DNA of 51,462 bases, from contig CADCUI010000009.1 in the NCBI GenBank assembly GCA_902805845.1, positions 1 to 51,462 on the forward strand. The letters run 5' to 3'. The notes under the pieces were generated by a model. The model had not been told where the DNA came from and did not search any database. It worked only from the letters and a program-made list of their open reading frames with translations. The DNA is from an uncultured Nocardioidaceae bacterium (GTDB taxonomy: Bacteria > Actinomycetota > Actinomycetes > Propionibacteriales > Nocardioidaceae). Shown here one piece after another: positions 28,623-33,695 of the stretch (position 1 is the first letter of the stretch; each line of letters starts with the position of its first letter). Position numbers and translations under genes: made by a program.

Positions 28623-30206
28623 TCAGCAGAGCGGCTCGCCGGGCTGCCGGGGGACGCTCACCGCGTTCCAGGCCGCCCGCACGGCCTTGAGCGGCCGGCA
28701 GCTTCCCGGGTACAGCCGCTTGGCTGCGGTGATGGTCCAGAGCCGGTACTTCGGGTAGCTGGCGGCGGAGGTCTTCGTCAGCATGGCGTGGTAGAGGATC
28801 TTGCTGACCTTGATTATGCCGATGCCGCTCACCTCGGCCCTGTTGCACGTCGGGCTGGCCGGTTGACCCGTGGCCCCGGTGCTGCCCTCCGCGGCCAGGA
28901 AGAACCAGTGGTTGCCGGGGCCCGAGGCGGCGTGCATCTCCATGTTCGGCACCGACGCCGAGAAGCAGTTCGGGTCCCCGGCGAGGGAGGGCCGGTACAT
29001 GTACCGGACCGGGCCGTCACCGAAGATGTCGACCTCTTCCCCGATGACGTAGTCCGGCGGGTCGTACCGGGCTCCCTGGTCGCTGTAGAACTCGGTCATG
29101 GTGGCGAAGGCGTCGGCGACGAACTCCGTCGTACCCGCCCAGGAGATGCCGCCGGGGGTGTTGTGGTCGACCCCGTGCCCCAGCTCGTGGGCCACGACGT
29201 CGATCGAACCCAGCCAGTCGCCTGCCTCGTTGTGGCCGAGGTTGACCTTGTTGTAGTCGAAGTACGCATCGACGGCGTCGAGCCCGACCTTGATCGGATA
29301 GGAGCCGCCGGTGGCTTTCACGCCGGGCCGGCCGAACCACGCCAGGAGCATGCGCTGCTGCTCCTGCGCCGCGAACAGGGCGTCGACACACCCGGTCTCC
29401 TTGTTGGTCGCCGCGCCGTTGCCCCAGGCGTCGTCGGACCCGGTCAGGACCGTGGCGCCGCCCTGTACGCCGCAGGCGAGCCCCGGGTGGCTCGGGTCGC
29501 GCAAGGAGAAGCCGGTGAGCAGCTTGCTGGTGTCCAGCGCCACCGGGCTGGGTCCGCTGTAGCCGGGCCTGCCGGTGCCGTGCACGACGAGGTCGTCGCG
29601 GCGAAGCACCTCGCCGCTCGATGCGTCGACGTACACGCGCAGCCTGGGGCCGGCGTCGGTCGAGACGGTGCTCTCGTAGGTCAGGTGCGAGCCGCCCTGT
29701 TGCAGCACCACGAGCTCGCTTGCCGTCGTCTCGCCTGTGCGGGCCCCGAGCTGCTGGCGGGCGACCGCCGCGGCCCGTGACCTGCTCAGTGCCGGACGGG
29801 TCGTCGGCAGCCGGACCGGTCGGCGCTGGGCGACCGAGGTCCCGAGGATCGTCCCGTCGGTGTCGGCGACGACCACGAAGTCGCCGCCGACCACGCGCAC
29901 GCCGCGATAGCTGCGGAGGTAGGGGACGTAGACCAGCCCCTCCGGCGTCGCGATCGACGGCTGCTGGTGGTAGCCGTCGAACGGACCGGGGTGCAGGGCG
30001 GGCGGCCTGTCGCCGAGGAGCTCGTGGGCGGCAGCCTCGGCCAGCCCCGTGGGATCACCGGTGCCGGCCAGTCGTCGGACCTCGGCGCTCCCGCGGGGGG
30101 ACGGTCCGACGGCGGCGTCGGAGGGGGCCGTCAGGCCCACCAGGGTGAGGAGTGCCGCGACGGCGCCCGCTCCGAACGCCCGCGTTGCCCGCGAAACTTT
30201 CAACAC
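28623..30206 (-). CDS. Secreted M4-family (thermolysin-like) metalloprotease precursor
   Basis: 527 residues from GTG 30206; the longer frame to 30272 adds a basic stretch before the signal. Signal sequence VSRATRAFGAGAVAALLTL is followed by an FTP/PepSY propeptide (LRVYVDASSGEVLRRDDLVV). In the protease, zinc ligands and catalytic Glu are in DVVAHELGHGVDHNTPGG, with the third ligand Glu in TEFVADAFATMTEFYSD. The His that stabilises the transition state is probably in ASGPGNHWFFLAAEG. The C-terminal domain has several Cys residues that may pair. It degrades extracellular protein and needs calcium. It follows the Asp-rich protein gene by 125 bp on the same strand. Confidence 0.93.
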   Translation of the reverse strand: MLKVSRATRAFGAGAVAALLTLVGLTAPSDAAVGPSPRGSAEVRRLAGTGDPTGLAEAAAHELLGDRPPALHPGPFDGYHQQPSIATPEGLVYVPYLRSYRGVRVVGGDFVVVADTDGTILGTSVAQRRPVRLPTTRPALSRSRAAAVARQQLGARTGETTASELVVLQQGGSHLTYESTVSTDAGPRLRVYVDASSGEVLRRDDLVVHGTGRPGYSGPSPVALDTSKLLTGFSLRDPSHPGLACGVQGGATVLTGSDDAWGNGAATNKETGCVDALFAAQEQQRMLLAWFGRPGVKATGGSYPIKVGLDAVDAYFDYNKVNLGHNEAGDWLGSIDVVAHELGHGVDHNTPGGISWAGTTEFVADAFATMTEFYSDQGARYDPPDYVIGEEVDIFGDGPVRYMYRPSLAGDPNCFSASVPNMEMHAASGPGNHWFFLAAEGSTGATGQPASPTCNRAEVSGIGIIKVSKILYHAMLTKTSAASYPKYRLWTITAAKRLYPGSCRPLKAVRAAWNAVSVPRQPGEPLC

Positions 30207-30331
30207 ATGTGCCCCAGGTGATCTCGTTCCGATCCTACGTCTGCAACGCAGAATTCGAGGGCTCTTCGCCAACTGGGGACCTACGGCTGCGAGACCGCGA
30301 AACTAGGCCTGATTCGGGCACGACGGACGTG

Positions 30332-31195
30332 TTACGGCCGCTCGAGCTCGACCTCCTCGAGCGTGCCGTCGTCCTCCAGGTCGACCTCGATCACGACGGC
30401 GTCGGGCACCAGGTCCTCGGTCGAGCCCTCCTCACCGGAACCGTGACCTGAGCTGTCGAACTCGATCTCGGTGTCGTCGGTGACCACGAAGGTCAGCAGG
30501 CCGGAGCGGAGGCTCTTGATGACGAGGTCACCGGTCTTGGCGTCGAAAGAGACGATCGGGCCGAGGAGGTCGTCGGTGTCCTCGCTGTCGTCGGAGCAGC
30601 TGTCGTCGTCGGAGTCGTCGTCGTCCTCGTTGCTCTGTCCGTCCTCGTCGGAGTCCTCCTCGCCGTCGGGCGTGCCGTCGTCGTCATCGTCGTCGTCGCC
30701 GGCTCGGAACCCGTAGTCGTTCTCGTCCTCGTCGGAGATGTTGTCCTCGTCGCGGTCGTCGTCGTCGTCGGAACAGGACTCATCGGCGTCGTCCTCGTCC
30801 TCGTTGTCGATGTCGTCGTCGTCGGAGTCCTCGTCGCCGTCGCGGGTCCCGTCGTCGTCGGAGTCACGGTCCGAGATCTGCGTGCCCCGCGCCCCGTCGT
30901 GGACCTCGTCGCCGTCGTCGTGGCCGTCGTTGTCGGAGTCCTCGTCGCCGGGGAGCCCGGTGTGCCGGTACTCGCCGAGGTTGCTCAGTCCGTCGTCGTC
31001 CTTGTCGCCGCGGGCGTTGGCCCGGTCGGGGTTGAGGCCGTGGGTGACCTCCCACCGGTTCGGCATCCCGTCGTCGTCCCGGTCGCTCCGCGAGGCGTGA
31101 GCCGTGGAGGAGGACAGCACCGCGGACGACACGGCGAGTGCCTTCGTCGTGAGCAGGATCGCGGTGCGCGCAGTACGGCGGTGGAACACTGACAT
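30332..31195 (-). CDS. Secreted Asp-rich protein with thrombospondin-type-3-like calcium repeats
   Basis: 287 residues from ATG 31195; AGAAGG lies 9 nt upstream, better than for the ATG at 31201. A signal sequence ends near AHA. Then come calcium-loop repeats of the TSP3/OmpA-like kind (DRDDDGMPNRWEVTHGLNPD, GDKDDDGLSNLGEY, DEDSDNDGHDDGDEVHDG), running into an extremely acidic stretch of Asp, Glu and Ser. Two Cys-Ser pairs break the stretch. A folded C-terminal part (IVSFDAKTGDLVIKSLRSG, FVVTDDTEIEFDSSG) resembles small beta domains of the DUF5666 sort. It probably binds much calcium outside the cell. It is divergent from the HTH-TPR regulator and may be under its control. Confidence 0.8.
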   Translation of the reverse strand: MSVFHRRTARTAILLTTKALAVSSAVLSSSTAHASRSDRDDDGMPNRWEVTHGLNPDRANARGDKDDDGLSNLGEYRHTGLPGDEDSDNDGHDDGDEVHDGARGTQISDRDSDDDGTRDGDEDSDDDDIDNEDEDDADESCSDDDDDRDEDNISDEDENDYGFRAGDDDDDDDGTPDGEEDSDEDGQSNEDDDDSDDDSCSDDSEDTDDLLGPIVSFDAKTGDLVIKSLRSGLLTFVVTDDTEIEFDSSGHGSGEEGSTEDLVPDAVVIEVDLEDDGTLEEVELERP

Positions 31196-31215
31196 GAGCA
31201 TCTGCCTTCTCGGGG

Positions 31216-31234
31216 CACCTCGCGAGTCGAGGTG
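31216..31234 (-). promoter_or_regulatory. Hairpin in the leader of the Asp-rich protein gene
   Basis: CACCTCG (31216-31222) and CGAGGTG (31228-31234) form a 7-bp stem with a 5-nt loop, about 20 nt before the start codon. It could affect translation. Confidence 0.35.
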
Positions 31235-31366
31235 GATCAGCTCCAGCGTGAGGCTGCCCGAGGTGGTTTTGGACGTTTTGCCGCGATTGGCCGCTACCCG
31301 ATGGTCCTAGTACCTCGCGCCGGGTCCGGGGTCCTCGGCAGGCTCCTTCTGCTCCGTAGTGGGTCG

Positions 31367-31412
31367 TCTGGCAAGCCATTGGTTGACGTACTTGCCAGAT
31401 TGCTGGTGCCAT
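31367..31412 (+). promoter_or_regulatory. Promoter of the HTH-TPR regulator overlapped by inverted repeat TCTGGCAAG-N15-CTTGCCAGA
   Basis: Arms are at 31367-31375 and 31391-31399, a perfect 9-bp inverted repeat. A -35 TTGACG (31383-31388) lies inside the 15-nt spacer, and a weak -10 TGCCAT (31407-31412) is 18 nt further and 6 nt before the start codon. A protein bound to both arms would cover the -35, pointing to autoregulation. The same half-site recurs at 33059. Confidence 0.65.
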
Positions 31413-31418
31413 AGGGGG

Positions 31419-32798
31419 GTGAGCGACGACATCGCTGCGCGCCTCCGGGCCGCCGATCCCCACAAGCTCGGCCAGCGCCTGCGTCAGACGCGGCGATCCC
31501 GGGGGATGACCCAGCCTGCGGTGGCCGGCGCGGATGCCTCGGCGGCGTACCTCTCCCGTATCGAGTCCGGACAGCGACGGCCCGACGTGGCGCTGCTGCA
31601 GCGGATCGCCGACCGGCTCCAGGTTCCGGTCGACGCCCTGCTCGACGACGGGCCGCAGCACGACCCTGACGAGGTGCGCCTGACCTTGGACTACGCCGAG
31701 CTGGCGCTCGAATCCGGCGAGATCGACGAGGCGGAGACACGGTCGCGAGCGGTCCTCGCGGACGGGTCCGCTGCCTTCGCCGGGATGGACGACCGAGCGA
31801 CCTATCTCCACGGCCGCGCACTCGAGGCGCAGGGCCGGCTCGACGACGCCATCGTGGAGCTCGAACGCCTCACAGGAACGCCGACGGACCTCCAGTGGGT
31901 GAGGAGCAGGATCGCTCTCAGCCGGTGCTACCGCGAGGGCGGCGACCTCACCAAGGCGGTCGAGTGCGGTGAGGGTGTGCTTGCGGCGCTCGCCGGGAGC
32001 GGACTCGCCGGGTGCGACGAGGCGGTGCAGCTGGCGGTCACCGTCGCCGCGGCGCACTTCGAGCGGGGCGACCGCGGGGAGGCGGTGCGGATCTGCCGTC
32101 GGACCGTCGAGGAGGCGGAGGGCACCGGCTCGACGACGGCCCGTGCCTCGGCGTACTGGAACGCGAGCCTCGTCGAGGCCGAGCGCGGGTCCACCCGGGC
32201 GGCGGTGGCGTTGGCCGAGCGGGCTCTGGCCCTGTTGGGCGAGGGGTCGGACCCGCGGAACGTGGCCCGGCTGCGCACCACCCTGGGCGACCTCTACCTC
32301 ACGCTCGAAGAGCCCGAGGTCGACCTCGCCGAGAGGTTGTTGCTCCGGGCGGCCGACGAGCTGGACGGCTCCAGCGCCGGGCTCGTCGACCTGGCACGCA
32401 ACCGCCTTGCCCGGGCTCGGGCCCGGCTGCTGGCCGGGGATCCGGTCGCGGCCAGGGCGCTGGCCGAGGACGTGTGCGGCGAGATGACCGGCGTCGCGCC
32501 CCTTCTGCTCGCCGACGGCTACGCGGTCCAGGGTCAGGCCGCCGCGGCCATGGGCGACTTCACCGACGCCCGTGACCGTTACCGCCGAGCTGTGCTCGTC
32601 CTCACCGGGGTCGGCGCGGATCGGTCGGCGGCCGACCTGTGGTACGACCTGGGGTCGTTGTGGGACGACCTGGGCGAGCTGGACGCGGCCCGGGACGCCT
32701 ACCGGCGGGCGGCTGCCTCGAGCGGGCTACGCGCCCGCCGAGCCGCTCCCCAGCGGGTTCTTCAGCAGCACCAGCCGCGGTCGCGGAGCTTGGAGTAG
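31419..32798 (+). CDS. XRE-family HTH regulator with C-terminal TPR array (RRNPP-like architecture)
   Basis: 459 residues from GTG 31419, with GGGGGG upstream and a leaderless-type -10. Residues 14-75 are a lambda-repressor-type HTH (KLGQRLRQTRRSRGMTQPAV, then SAAYLSRIESGQRRPDVALL). From about residue 80 on, the chain is a run of helical pairs of TPR type (LDYAELALESGEIDEAETRS, YLHGRALEAQGRLDDAIVEL, LWYDLGSLWDDLGELDAARD). HTH plus TPR is the layout of peptide-sensing regulators such as Rgg, PlcR, NprR and AimR. The gene runs into a convergent small peptide gene, overlapping it by 37 bp. Signal and targets are unknown; operator-like repeats lie upstream of both genes. Confidence 0.85.
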   Translation: MSDDIAARLRAADPHKLGQRLRQTRRSRGMTQPAVAGADASAAYLSRIESGQRRPDVALLQRIADRLQVPVDALLDDGPQHDPDEVRLTLDYAELALESGEIDEAETRSRAVLADGSAAFAGMDDRATYLHGRALEAQGRLDDAIVELERLTGTPTDLQWVRSRIALSRCYREGGDLTKAVECGEGVLAALAGSGLAGCDEAVQLAVTVAAAHFERGDRGEAVRICRRTVEEAEGTGSTTARASAYWNASLVEAERGSTRAAVALAERALALLGEGSDPRNVARLRTTLGDLYLTLEEPEVDLAERLLLRAADELDGSSAGLVDLARNRLARARARLLAGDPVAARALAEDVCGEMTGVAPLLLADGYAVQGQAAAAMGDFTDARDRYRRAVLVLTGVGADRSAADLWYDLGSLWDDLGELDAARDAYRRAAASSGLRARRAAPQRVLQQHQPRSRSLE

Positions 32799-32917
32799 GT
32801 GAGAGCGGACTGCGAGACGGCGTCGTCCGCGCCGTGCGAGACCACGTACCCGAGACCCAGCACGGACGCGAACGTGAGCATGGTTGCCACCAGTCGGGGC
32901 ATGACGAAACGACGCAT
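32762..32917 (-). CDS. Small secreted peptide precursor, possible signal for the adjacent HTH-TPR regulator
   Basis: 51 residues from ATG 32917, with a strong GGGAGGAG 8 nt upstream. N-terminus MRRFVMPRLVATMLTFASVL is basic then hydrophobic, as for an export signal; the export region ends near VVSHGADD. The remaining chain is SQSALTYSKLRDRGWCC, closing with two adjacent Cys. A mature product could be a short C-terminal peptide, as in Phr, PapR or SHP signals, and Cys-Cys could form a vicinal disulphide. It overlaps the 3' end of the HTH-TPR gene on the opposite strand. A TGGCAAG-N5-CTTGCCA repeat lies about 145 bp upstream. No homologue is known to me. Confidence 0.7.
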   Translation of the reverse strand: MRRFVMPRLVATMLTFASVLGLGYVVSHGADDAVSQSALTYSKLRDRGWCC

Positions 32918-33058
32918 GGGGGAGCTCCTCCCAAAGCTTCCGGGGCGGTGGCGTCAGCAGATGGCCACCGCCGGTCTCATCGACCCGGACGTGTGCAAGA
33001 CGAGGAGTACGTCGACAAACAGGACGAACGGTCAGGCGCATGGTCCGATCGGGTCTGG

Positions 33059-33079
33059 TCTGGCAAGTGCCGCTTGCCA
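33059..33079. promoter_or_regulatory. Second inverted repeat TGGCAAG-N5-CTTGCCA, candidate operator
   Basis: Arms TGGCAAG (33061-33067) and CTTGCCA (33073-33079), with TC before the left arm giving the full 9-bp half-site TCTGGCAAG (33059-33067) seen at 31367. Spacer is 5 nt instead of 15, a difference of one helical turn. It lies 142-162 bp upstream of the peptide start. The 331 nt between peptide gene and tRNA-Arg hold only this, a perfect TTGACA on the plus strand at 33096-33101, and the hairpin below. Confidence 0.6.
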
Positions 33080-33152
33080 TTCTTTACACTCGCCCTTGAC
33101 AAACCCGGTCCGCTGGTAAAGGCTGTAGGCACTGGGAGGACGCCGGGGTCGG

Positions 33153-33182
33153 GAGCAGGTCAACTGGGAGGGTGACCTGCTC
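33153..33182 (-). terminator. Hairpin downstream of tRNA-Arg
   Basis: GAGCAGGTCA (33153-33162) and TGACCTGCTC (33173-33182) form a perfect 10-bp stem with a 10-nt loop, 66 nt beyond the tRNA 3' end. It could also end a short plus-strand RNA started by the TTGACA element at 33096. Confidence 0.5.
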
Positions 33183-33248
33183 ACCGCCCCCGACGCGTGA
33201 GCATCTCGGGCACAGGCACGAAGTCTCGGCTGACGGGTCTCGGCTGGG

Positions 33249-33322
33249 CGCCCCCGGCAGGACTCGAACCTGCGACCAACAGATTAGAAGTCTGTCGCTC
33301 TGTCCAGCTGAGCTACGGGGGC
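33249..33322 (-). tRNA. tRNA-Arg (anticodon TCT)
   Basis: 74 nt. Acceptor GCCCCCG pairs fully with CGGGGGC, discriminator G. Anticodon stem ACAGA/TCTGT encloses CTTCTAA, giving TCT for the rare AGA codon. T-arm GCAGG-TTCGAGT-CCTGC. CCA not encoded. Confidence 0.97.
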
Positions 33323-33476
33323 CTTGCGGGAATGCCGCCGGTCGGAGGCTATCCGACGCCACGGGACCGCACGCCTGACGCCCGGCGCCTGAGGGACGCC
33401 CGAGATCACGGAAACGGCACTGCGCTCGGACCTCTCCCGGGGAGGCGCGGATGTCCCGGACCGCCGCGTTGCGGCC

Positions 33477-33482
33477 TAGACT
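33477..33482 (+). promoter_or_regulatory. Leaderless -10 of the ANTAR-like gene
   Basis: TAGACT lies 6 nt before GTG 33489, with no ribosome-binding site. Confidence 0.4.
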
Positions 33483-33488
33483 GCCGCG

Positions 33489-33695
33489 GTGGCGGGATCA
33501 GCCGATGACGACGCGGTGGAGCAGGCGACTGCCATCGCGATGGACCGTTATGACATGAGCCAGCCTGGGGCGCTCGCGTTGCTCTCCCGACTTGCTCGCC
33601 GCGGCAAGGTCGATCTACGCGTGGTCGCACTGGCCATGATCGCGGCCGCGGTTGCGCGACGTGCCCGGCAGGAGCTGCTGCCGAGGGTGCAGTGA
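33489..33695 (+). CDS. Small ANTAR-like helical protein
   Basis: 68 residues from GTG 33489. The stretch AVEQATAIAMDRYDMSQPGA followed by LALLSRLARRGKVDLRVVAL follows the ANTAR pattern: I-x-x-A-x-G-x-L-M-x-R-x, then A-x-x-x-L-R-x-x-A-x-x, then L-x-x-V-A. ANTAR domains bind two-hexaloop RNA and block termination. Here the domain stands alone, without a GAF or receiver domain, and some conserved positions differ, so the assignment is tentative. No two-hexaloop RNA was identified. Confidence 0.55.
   Translation: MAGSADDDAVEQATAIAMDRYDMSQPGALALLSRLARRGKVDLRVVALAMIAAAVARRARQELLPRVQ

Follow-up and report, generated by a model that had tools for sequence, protein, structure and literature searches.

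A regulator gene and a small propeptide gene meet tail to tail

In the window, by which we mean the whole stretch of 51,462 nucleotides that was analysed, a gene for an HTH-TPR regulator and putative intracellular peptide receptor (31419..32798, + strand; GTG start at 31419, TAG stop, 459 aa) runs into a 51-codon gene on the opposite strand (32762..32917, − strand), and the two share the 37-bp tail-to-tail overlap (32762-32798) that a preliminary description of this DNA had pointed out. That description also read the regulator as an XRE helix-turn-helix followed by TPR helices, and both Pfam and the AlphaFold model bear this out. The XRE-type domain covers approximately residues 15-75 (31461..31643, +), where Pfam places HTH_31 at residues 17-72 (E = 7.5e-11) and HTH_3 at 21-73; an N-terminal HTH of this kind is carried by the transcription-factor members of the RRNPP systems. 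The TPR solenoid occupies residues 83-434 (31665..32720, +) and is supported by the TPR models of Pfam, several of them above their cut-offs and extending to residue 434, by matches in the PDB, by the segment correlations described below, and by an all-helical AlphaFold model (mean pLDDT 92.1) in which the helices of the TPR part span residues 83 to 434.

The small gene encodes a propeptide of 51 aa, MRRFVMPRLVATMLTFASVLGLGYVVSHGADDAVSQSALTYSKLRDRGWCC, with an export-type leader made of a basic N-terminus and a hydrophobic stretch, and with RGWCC as its last residues (32765..32779, −), the conserved end that we presume to be the core of the signal. The strong ribosome-binding site and the export-like start previously noted for this gene are both present, the former as a Shine-Dalgarno-like GGGAGGAG (32925..32932, −) that can be read directly, shortly before the ATG. 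A script of our own scored leaders for charge, for a hydrophobic core and, loosely, for an AxA-type site. The tail that follows the putative AxA-type site is about 22 residues in the window propeptide, longer than the approximately 9-15 residues of many relatives, for example APKDVQQRNVWCC.

In the excerpted text of its description, RRNPP_detector looks for a receptor of 250-500 aa with TPR repeats and for a propeptide of 10-100 aa that is adjacent at -60 to 400 bp and is either exported according to SignalP or matched by an SHP model (PMC10075063). The regulator has 459 aa, Pfam TPR models and a TPR fold in its predicted structure, and the propeptide has 51 aa and overlaps the regulator gene by 37 bp.

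Conservation of the gene pair

At E ≤ 1e-30, relatives of the regulator were found in 119 of 341 genomes of the family, and within its own genus they were found in 2 of 5 genomes at E ≤ 1e-15, the source genome counted, so the regulator is an accessory gene in that genus. The loci of the listed E ≤ 1e-30 matches, together with three loci from named contigs, make up the set of relatives used here. Among the matches listed, at least 160 distinct regulator genes or pieces could be told apart, 146 of them full length and nearly all from the same family, one (L041) coming from a genome called Actinomycetales.

Candidate propeptides were sought with a rule that fixes the Cys-Cys, a basic residue and a hydrophobic stretch and leaves Trp, position and strand free. 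The preliminary description had proposed looking for an export-like ORF with a Cys-Cys end next to the regulator, and for conservation and purifying selection of that ORF wherever relatives retain the regulator. Both were found. A convergent secreted-type ORF ending in Cys-Cys lies within 350 bp of the regulator 3' end in 98 of the 143 full-length regulators, among the matches listed, that have at least 250 bp of downstream sequence, and the pooled dN/dS of the propeptide is 0.38 over 39 nearest pairs and 0.40 over the last ten codons, which indicates that leader and tail are both under selection at the protein level. The same kind of ORF was never found downstream on the same strand (0/143) or inside the regulator (0/146), and it was divergent and upstream in 7 of the regulators with enough upstream DNA. 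Order-2 Markov simulation of the downstream stretches gave 0.08 such ORFs on average and never more than 1 in any of 50 runs, against 91 observed in 142 stretches. The convergent propeptide is present in 38 of the 40 closest relatives among the matches listed, and when regulators were clustered at 70% identity, 49 of 80 clusters held at least one copy. Further downstream, at 700-2900 bp, the rule picks up a Cys-Cys-ended ORF in 6 of 104 loci, some of which lie in regulator arrays.

A looser rule, applied without simulation and allowing residues after the Cys-Cys on either side of the regulator within 900 bp, raises the count to 110 of 143, some of the added cases being doubtful, and leaves 33 of 143 with no Cys-Cys peptide within that distance. 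L005, one of the two regulators of genome G002, belongs to the latter. A group of five in genus g20 has the peptide upstream in the regulator's own orientation, with CC(R/K) as its end. On a tree of 132 regulators the convergent layout groups by clade (22 changes vs 36.5 when shuffled), and five members of a group of six with 99% support are divergent.

The set contains 116 distinct propeptides, most of them 39-45 aa, and although Cys-Cys itself is imposed by the search rule, Trp precedes it, at position -3, in 77 of the 116. Several loci carry two or three tandem propeptide copies whose tails are the same or nearly so. At four loci (L135, L136, L077 and L140), two or three regulator genes lie close by one Cys-Cys peptide gene, an arrangement reminiscent of several receptors that share a signal or compete for it.

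A simple scan of neighbouring genes found no other gene comparably kept. The best neighbouring family occurs in just 11 of 123 loci; the scan was based on longest ORFs, some plainly in the wrong frame, and many loci offer only about 1.5 kb of flank, so that a conserved partner may lie at a greater distance. By this measure the pair is therefore the unit.

Shared upstream sites

Matching inverted repeats had been reported before both genes, and they are there. The regulator-side repeat, CTGGCAAG-N15-CTTGCCAG (31368..31398), is a presumed operator that overlaps a -35-like TTGACG at 31383-31388, a placement that would suit autoregulation; the peptide-side repeat, CTGGCAAG-N5-CTTGCCA (33060..33079), is a presumed operator 143 bp before the ATG. 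Their spacers of 15 and 5 bp are 10 bp apart, about one helical turn. Strand-wise, the TGGCAAG..CTTGCCA pattern has 3 matches in the window vs 0.01 expected, and exact matches in the whole assembly (3,279,375 bases) occur at these two places only, the reversed-pattern control giving 0 across the assembly.

Identical inverted-repeat words in both upstream stretches were considered as a general form of the site and rejected, since they occur in 8 of 99 loci against a mean of 5.6 and a maximum of 11 in a mismatched-pair control, so that the palindromic form seen in the window is not general. The half site, the hexamer TTGCCA/TGGCAA, is more general: of 99 stretches ahead of the peptide gene, 59 contain it where 2.2 would be expected, and of 99 ahead of the regulator, 30 do, with an expectation of 1.5. 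Because related loci are not independent, these counts serve as a guide and not as a probability. In many Nocardioides-group loci the half site is arranged as direct repeats ahead of the peptide gene. In g18, which we take to be Nocardioides, TTGCC repeats about 11-12 bp apart are found in many peptide promoters. In 8 of 10 g18 genomes a triple TTGCC repeat is present exactly once, and all eight places are 259-748 bp from the 3' side of a regulator match. Neither the exact palindrome in the assembly nor the triple repeat in the 10 g18 genomes marked any target beyond the pair. A second word, CACAAT/ATTGTG, precedes 53 of 99 regulator genes, typically about 12 bp ahead of the ATG, and this spacing suggests a leaderless regulator transcript.

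Regulators and peptides beyond the family

The preliminary description framed the pair within Nocardioidaceae, where it is indeed conserved; its distribution is wider than that family. A profile built from 35 regulators picked up relatives at E ≤ 1e-40 in 96 of 393 genomes sampled from the class, and secreted-type ORFs with Cys-Cys at or near the end, mostly divergent, accompany them in eight other families. These are f19 (13/14 loci, with ends such as ..WPGMCC and ..DFCC), f10 (2/2), f15 (3/4, two of the three convergent), f35 (3/5), f24 and f36 (1/1 each), f23 (4/4, one ending CC and the others CCLV, CCG and CCDAIPA), and f16, where 3 of 13 loci have the Cys-Cys type and three further loci end in WNGPW, QWPI or GWGWPG. 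The second HTH-TPR paralogue of f16 (L196, L197 and L226) has a conserved 52-aa ORF of MQVKKVLKYG type, unlike the Cys-Cys peptides, which lies upstream by about 650 bp in the same orientation. No Cys-Cys-type ORF was seen in f37 (0/1), f34 (0/2) or ten f18 loci; six of these f18 loci carry a divergent ORF of secreted type that ends in another way. Family f18 has a close regulator in 34 of 61 genomes, and in a larger sample 13 of 30 loci have a divergent secreted-type ORF whose end is not conserved.

A distant receptor branch is present in 61 of 61 sampled genomes of genus g30 (family f4), and all 30 loci examined there have a divergent secreted-type propeptide with 1-4 copies of [IV]GNWPDPM, one copy being altered now and then. 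With 87-100% identity to the query, these 30 regulators do not count as independent cases. Identical units repeated within one secreted precursor are the classic look of a processed peptide signal. Many g30 genomes also encode a second protein whose match to the receptor begins only at about residue 54-78 and so leaves out the HTH, possibly a TPR-only, Rap-like relative.

Across the phylum, the profile matches 33 of 396 sampled genomes, and 23 loci outside the class, from families f45, f51, f82, f86 and f90, were judged by eye under loose rules and without simulation, a fixed-coordinate upstream search covering 21 of them (not L298 and L321). Under these rules 14 of the 23 have a divergent ORF of approximately 22-35 aa with Trp-Pro, Phe-Pro or Tyr-Pro end words, for example ANWPHVP, AGFPWPK and GAPWPHCC, with Cys-free NWPHH also occurring; in the three f82 loci an ORF that ends near SDG follows closely downstream on the same strand, and no peptide was found in 6 of the 23.

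The peptide tail varies with the TPR domain

If the propeptide tail were a ligand read by the TPR groove, the two should change together, and in 89 peptide/regulator pairs they do. Taking positions -9 to -3 as the mature tail, its distances follow those of the TPR part when the HTH is held (partial r 0.53, p 0.001) and do not follow those of the HTH when the TPR part is held (-0.05, p 0.89). The leader tracks both, at 0.28 for the TPR part and 0.20 for the HTH. When 64 TPR columns were sampled 200 times, the tail gave a mean of 0.45 vs 0.09 and the leader 0.24 vs 0.27. The TPR segments that track the mature tail best are residues 205-254 and 325-374. This pattern lends indirect support to reading of the tail by the TPR groove, and a stronger phylogenetic signal in the TPR part may account for some of the tracking.

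Fold and relation to known systems

By profile, the best natural HTH+TPR chain in the PDB is PlcR (profile 14-250, E 5.1e-14), after engineered TPR proteins, and in Foldseek PlcR with PapR7 and DNA ranks seventh. In VIA-align, over approximately residues 80-440, the Rap of phi3T scores Z 25.2, RapI 24.1 and NprR 23.7; LGN, a TPR protein that is no pheromone receptor, reaches Z 27.5, and PlcR is not among the best 50 listed. Since LGN and other TPR proteins score as high or higher, the predicted fold agrees with RRNPP but is not specific to it. No RNPP or Rgg family appears among the Pfam and NCBIfam hits of the window regulator up to E 1, nor in the best 25 of 34 families matched by the 35 profile members. 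The RRNPP likeness that we propose is accordingly one of mode of working, in which the operational rules that can be tested agree and the named sequence models do not match.

PlcR-PapR of the Bacillus cereus group offers the same combination of an HTH + TPR regulator and a small secreted propeptide, and its signal is the C-terminal heptapeptide of that propeptide. We know of no PapR that ends in Cys-Cys or Trp-Pro, as the actinobacterial peptides do; the actinobacterial pairs are also mostly convergent or divergent, and the window regulator is longer, at 459 aa vs 293 for the PlcR chain. PapR7 is given as ADLPFEF in the excerpted text of PMC6568020.

Rap-Phr, NprR-NprX and the phage phi3T Rap share a TPR solenoid of similar length (Z 23.7-25.2 over about 340 residues), and Rap-Phr and NprR-NprX use short exported propeptides. 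The alignments with Rap and NprR have just 9-12% sequence identity, however, and nothing suggests a phosphatase role for the regulator. The NsdA family (NF053720) consists of TPR-like regulators, and at E ≤ 0.001 its model is matched by 19 of the 35 profile members, the best of them at 7e-14. The window regulator matches it weakly, over residues 15-351, with 21.1 bits against a cut-off of 75, and by that cut-off falls outside the family. To our knowledge NsdA has no peptide partner. Gamma-butyrolactone signalling in Streptomyces, with A-factor and its receptor ArpA (PMC4748050, in excerpt), is likewise actinobacterial cell-cell signalling through an intracellular receptor, although its signal is a small, diffusible, enzyme-made molecule and not a gene-encoded peptide.

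A proposed peptide-pheromone circuit and its alternatives

We consider it probable that the two genes form a peptide-pheromone system operating in the manner of Firmicutes RRNPP systems, and the linkage of the two genes together with the selection on the small ORF supports the RRNPP-like interpretation first offered for this locus. In this proposal the product of the small gene would be a propeptide that its leader directs through the Sec pathway, after which signal peptidase, and perhaps a further protease, would release a short peptide from the C-terminus, with Trp-Cys-Cys as its last residues. This peptide would accumulate outside and then re-enter through an oligopeptide permease, bind in the groove of the TPR solenoid, and so alter the HTH dimer on the TGGCAAG..CTTGCCA sites before both genes, in which case the pair would control its own expression. 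We infer each of these steps, export, maturation, re-import, peptide binding and DNA binding, and likewise the direction of control and any further targets. RRNPP peptides are re-imported by the oligopeptide permease. No oligopeptide importer is encoded in the window, as had been stated before, and the source genome encodes 5 SBP_bac_5 binding proteins of the peptide type, all above the Pfam cut-off.

Three other explanations each account for parts of the data; none accounts jointly for the Cys-free relatives, the repeats and the co-variation with the TPR domain. The peptide might be a bacteriocin or toxin, either antimicrobial or part of a toxin-antitoxin pair, that the regulator controls or neutralises. 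A small secreted-type peptide does adjoin an XRE regulator, XRE proteins can be antitoxins, and a HipB-like antitoxin model matches 29 of 35 profile members over the HTH range. No gene for export, immunity or modification is kept nearby in the scanned loci under simple ORF calling, and the GNWPDPM repeats, the very short tails and the co-variation of tail and TPR domain suit a ligand better, so we regard a toxin as improbable. A secreted Cys-Cys peptide that binds metal or acts in redox chemistry, next to a regulator that senses some other cue such as envelope stress, would make sense of the vicinal terminal cysteines and of the Trp so often found before them. Homologous receptors nevertheless stand beside Cys-free WNGPW, QWPI, GNWPDPM or NWPHH ends, so the cysteines are not needed for the basic function, and this explanation is quite improbable.

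Least of all do we favour a cysteine-sensing leader, or attenuator, in which the Cys-Cys codons would stall ribosomes and no signal would be secreted. Mycobacteria do have attenuators built from short ORFs that close with consecutive Cys codons, and upstream of some Nocardioides-group regulators lie sequences that we take to be CysN- and CysD-like, one cluster holding 5 and another 4 of the 123 loci, while a third, again of 5, looks like the first in another frame. In the window and in the 98 relatives counted above, however, the ORF runs convergently to the regulator 3' end, so there is no gene to attenuate in cis, and selection on leader and tail at the protein level and the Cys-free tails of related pairs leave this explanation very improbable.

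The best reading of the wider distribution is that an RRNPP-like pheromone-receptor pair is widespread in Actinomycetota. HTH-TPR intracellular pheromone receptors are described, in the excerpted text, mainly from Firmicutes and their mobile elements, and actinobacterial signals as typically small molecules made by enzymes (PMC10075063). Given that the pair recurs in many actinobacteria, these bacteria probably communicate by short peptides along a route known mainly from Firmicutes. We found no description of an RRNPP-like gene pair in Actinomycetota in the searchable parts of the openly licensed PMC literature. The tail words GNWPDP, NWPDPM, RNVWCC and WPGMCC are absent from the openly licensed PMC papers searched, and RTGWCC, among the matches listed, is apparently a run of primer letters. 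The pheromone model is directly testable, since the predicted peptides are short, vary from one species to another, and could be supplied to cultures in synthetic form.

A more speculative extension, which we hold to be doubtful but possible, combines two ideas: that the pairs descend from one ancient, phylum-wide peptide language whose words have diversified (WCC, WPGMCC, GNWPDPM repeats, NWPH, FPWPK and SDG), and that the large Cys-Cys branch uses a thiol-based signal. The vicinal cysteines might close, pair or become modified outside the cell and be reduced inside it. If this were so, then the receptor would sense population density and redox state together.

Genomic neighbourhood and mobile elements

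Two genes diverge from the regulator on its upstream side. A secreted thermolysin-type M4 protease (28623-30272, −; Peptidase_M4 and M4_C) and an Asp-rich protein with calcium-repeat-like stretches and no Pfam hit (30332-31201, −) lie there, and neither stood out beside the regulators of relatives in the 123 loci. NprR of Bacillus controls a thermolysin-type protease.

On the other side, a tRNA-Arg(TCT) gene (33247-33322, −) starts 168 bp beyond the peptide-side repeat. A search for RNA families over 30900-33600 returned the tRNA plus two matches below their gathering scores. Together with the patchy distribution within the genus (2/5), the tRNA gene could mark an integration site.

A phage or plasmid origin of the window pair was considered and set aside, there being no sign of a phage-borne state among the phage and plasmid matches. 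Matches in PADLOC, and likewise in PHROGs, concern the HTH end of the regulator only. The regulator matches one phage record and 19 plasmid records, 15 of the 19 from Streptomyces, with the ten listed of the 19 at 30-36% identity. The phage record, MT836207.1, is an unannotated 11.9 kb entry named 'Bacteriophage sp.' that carries 79% of a regulator at its edge (bases 2-1093, 52.7% identity), and is possibly a bacterial contig that was deposited under a phage name.
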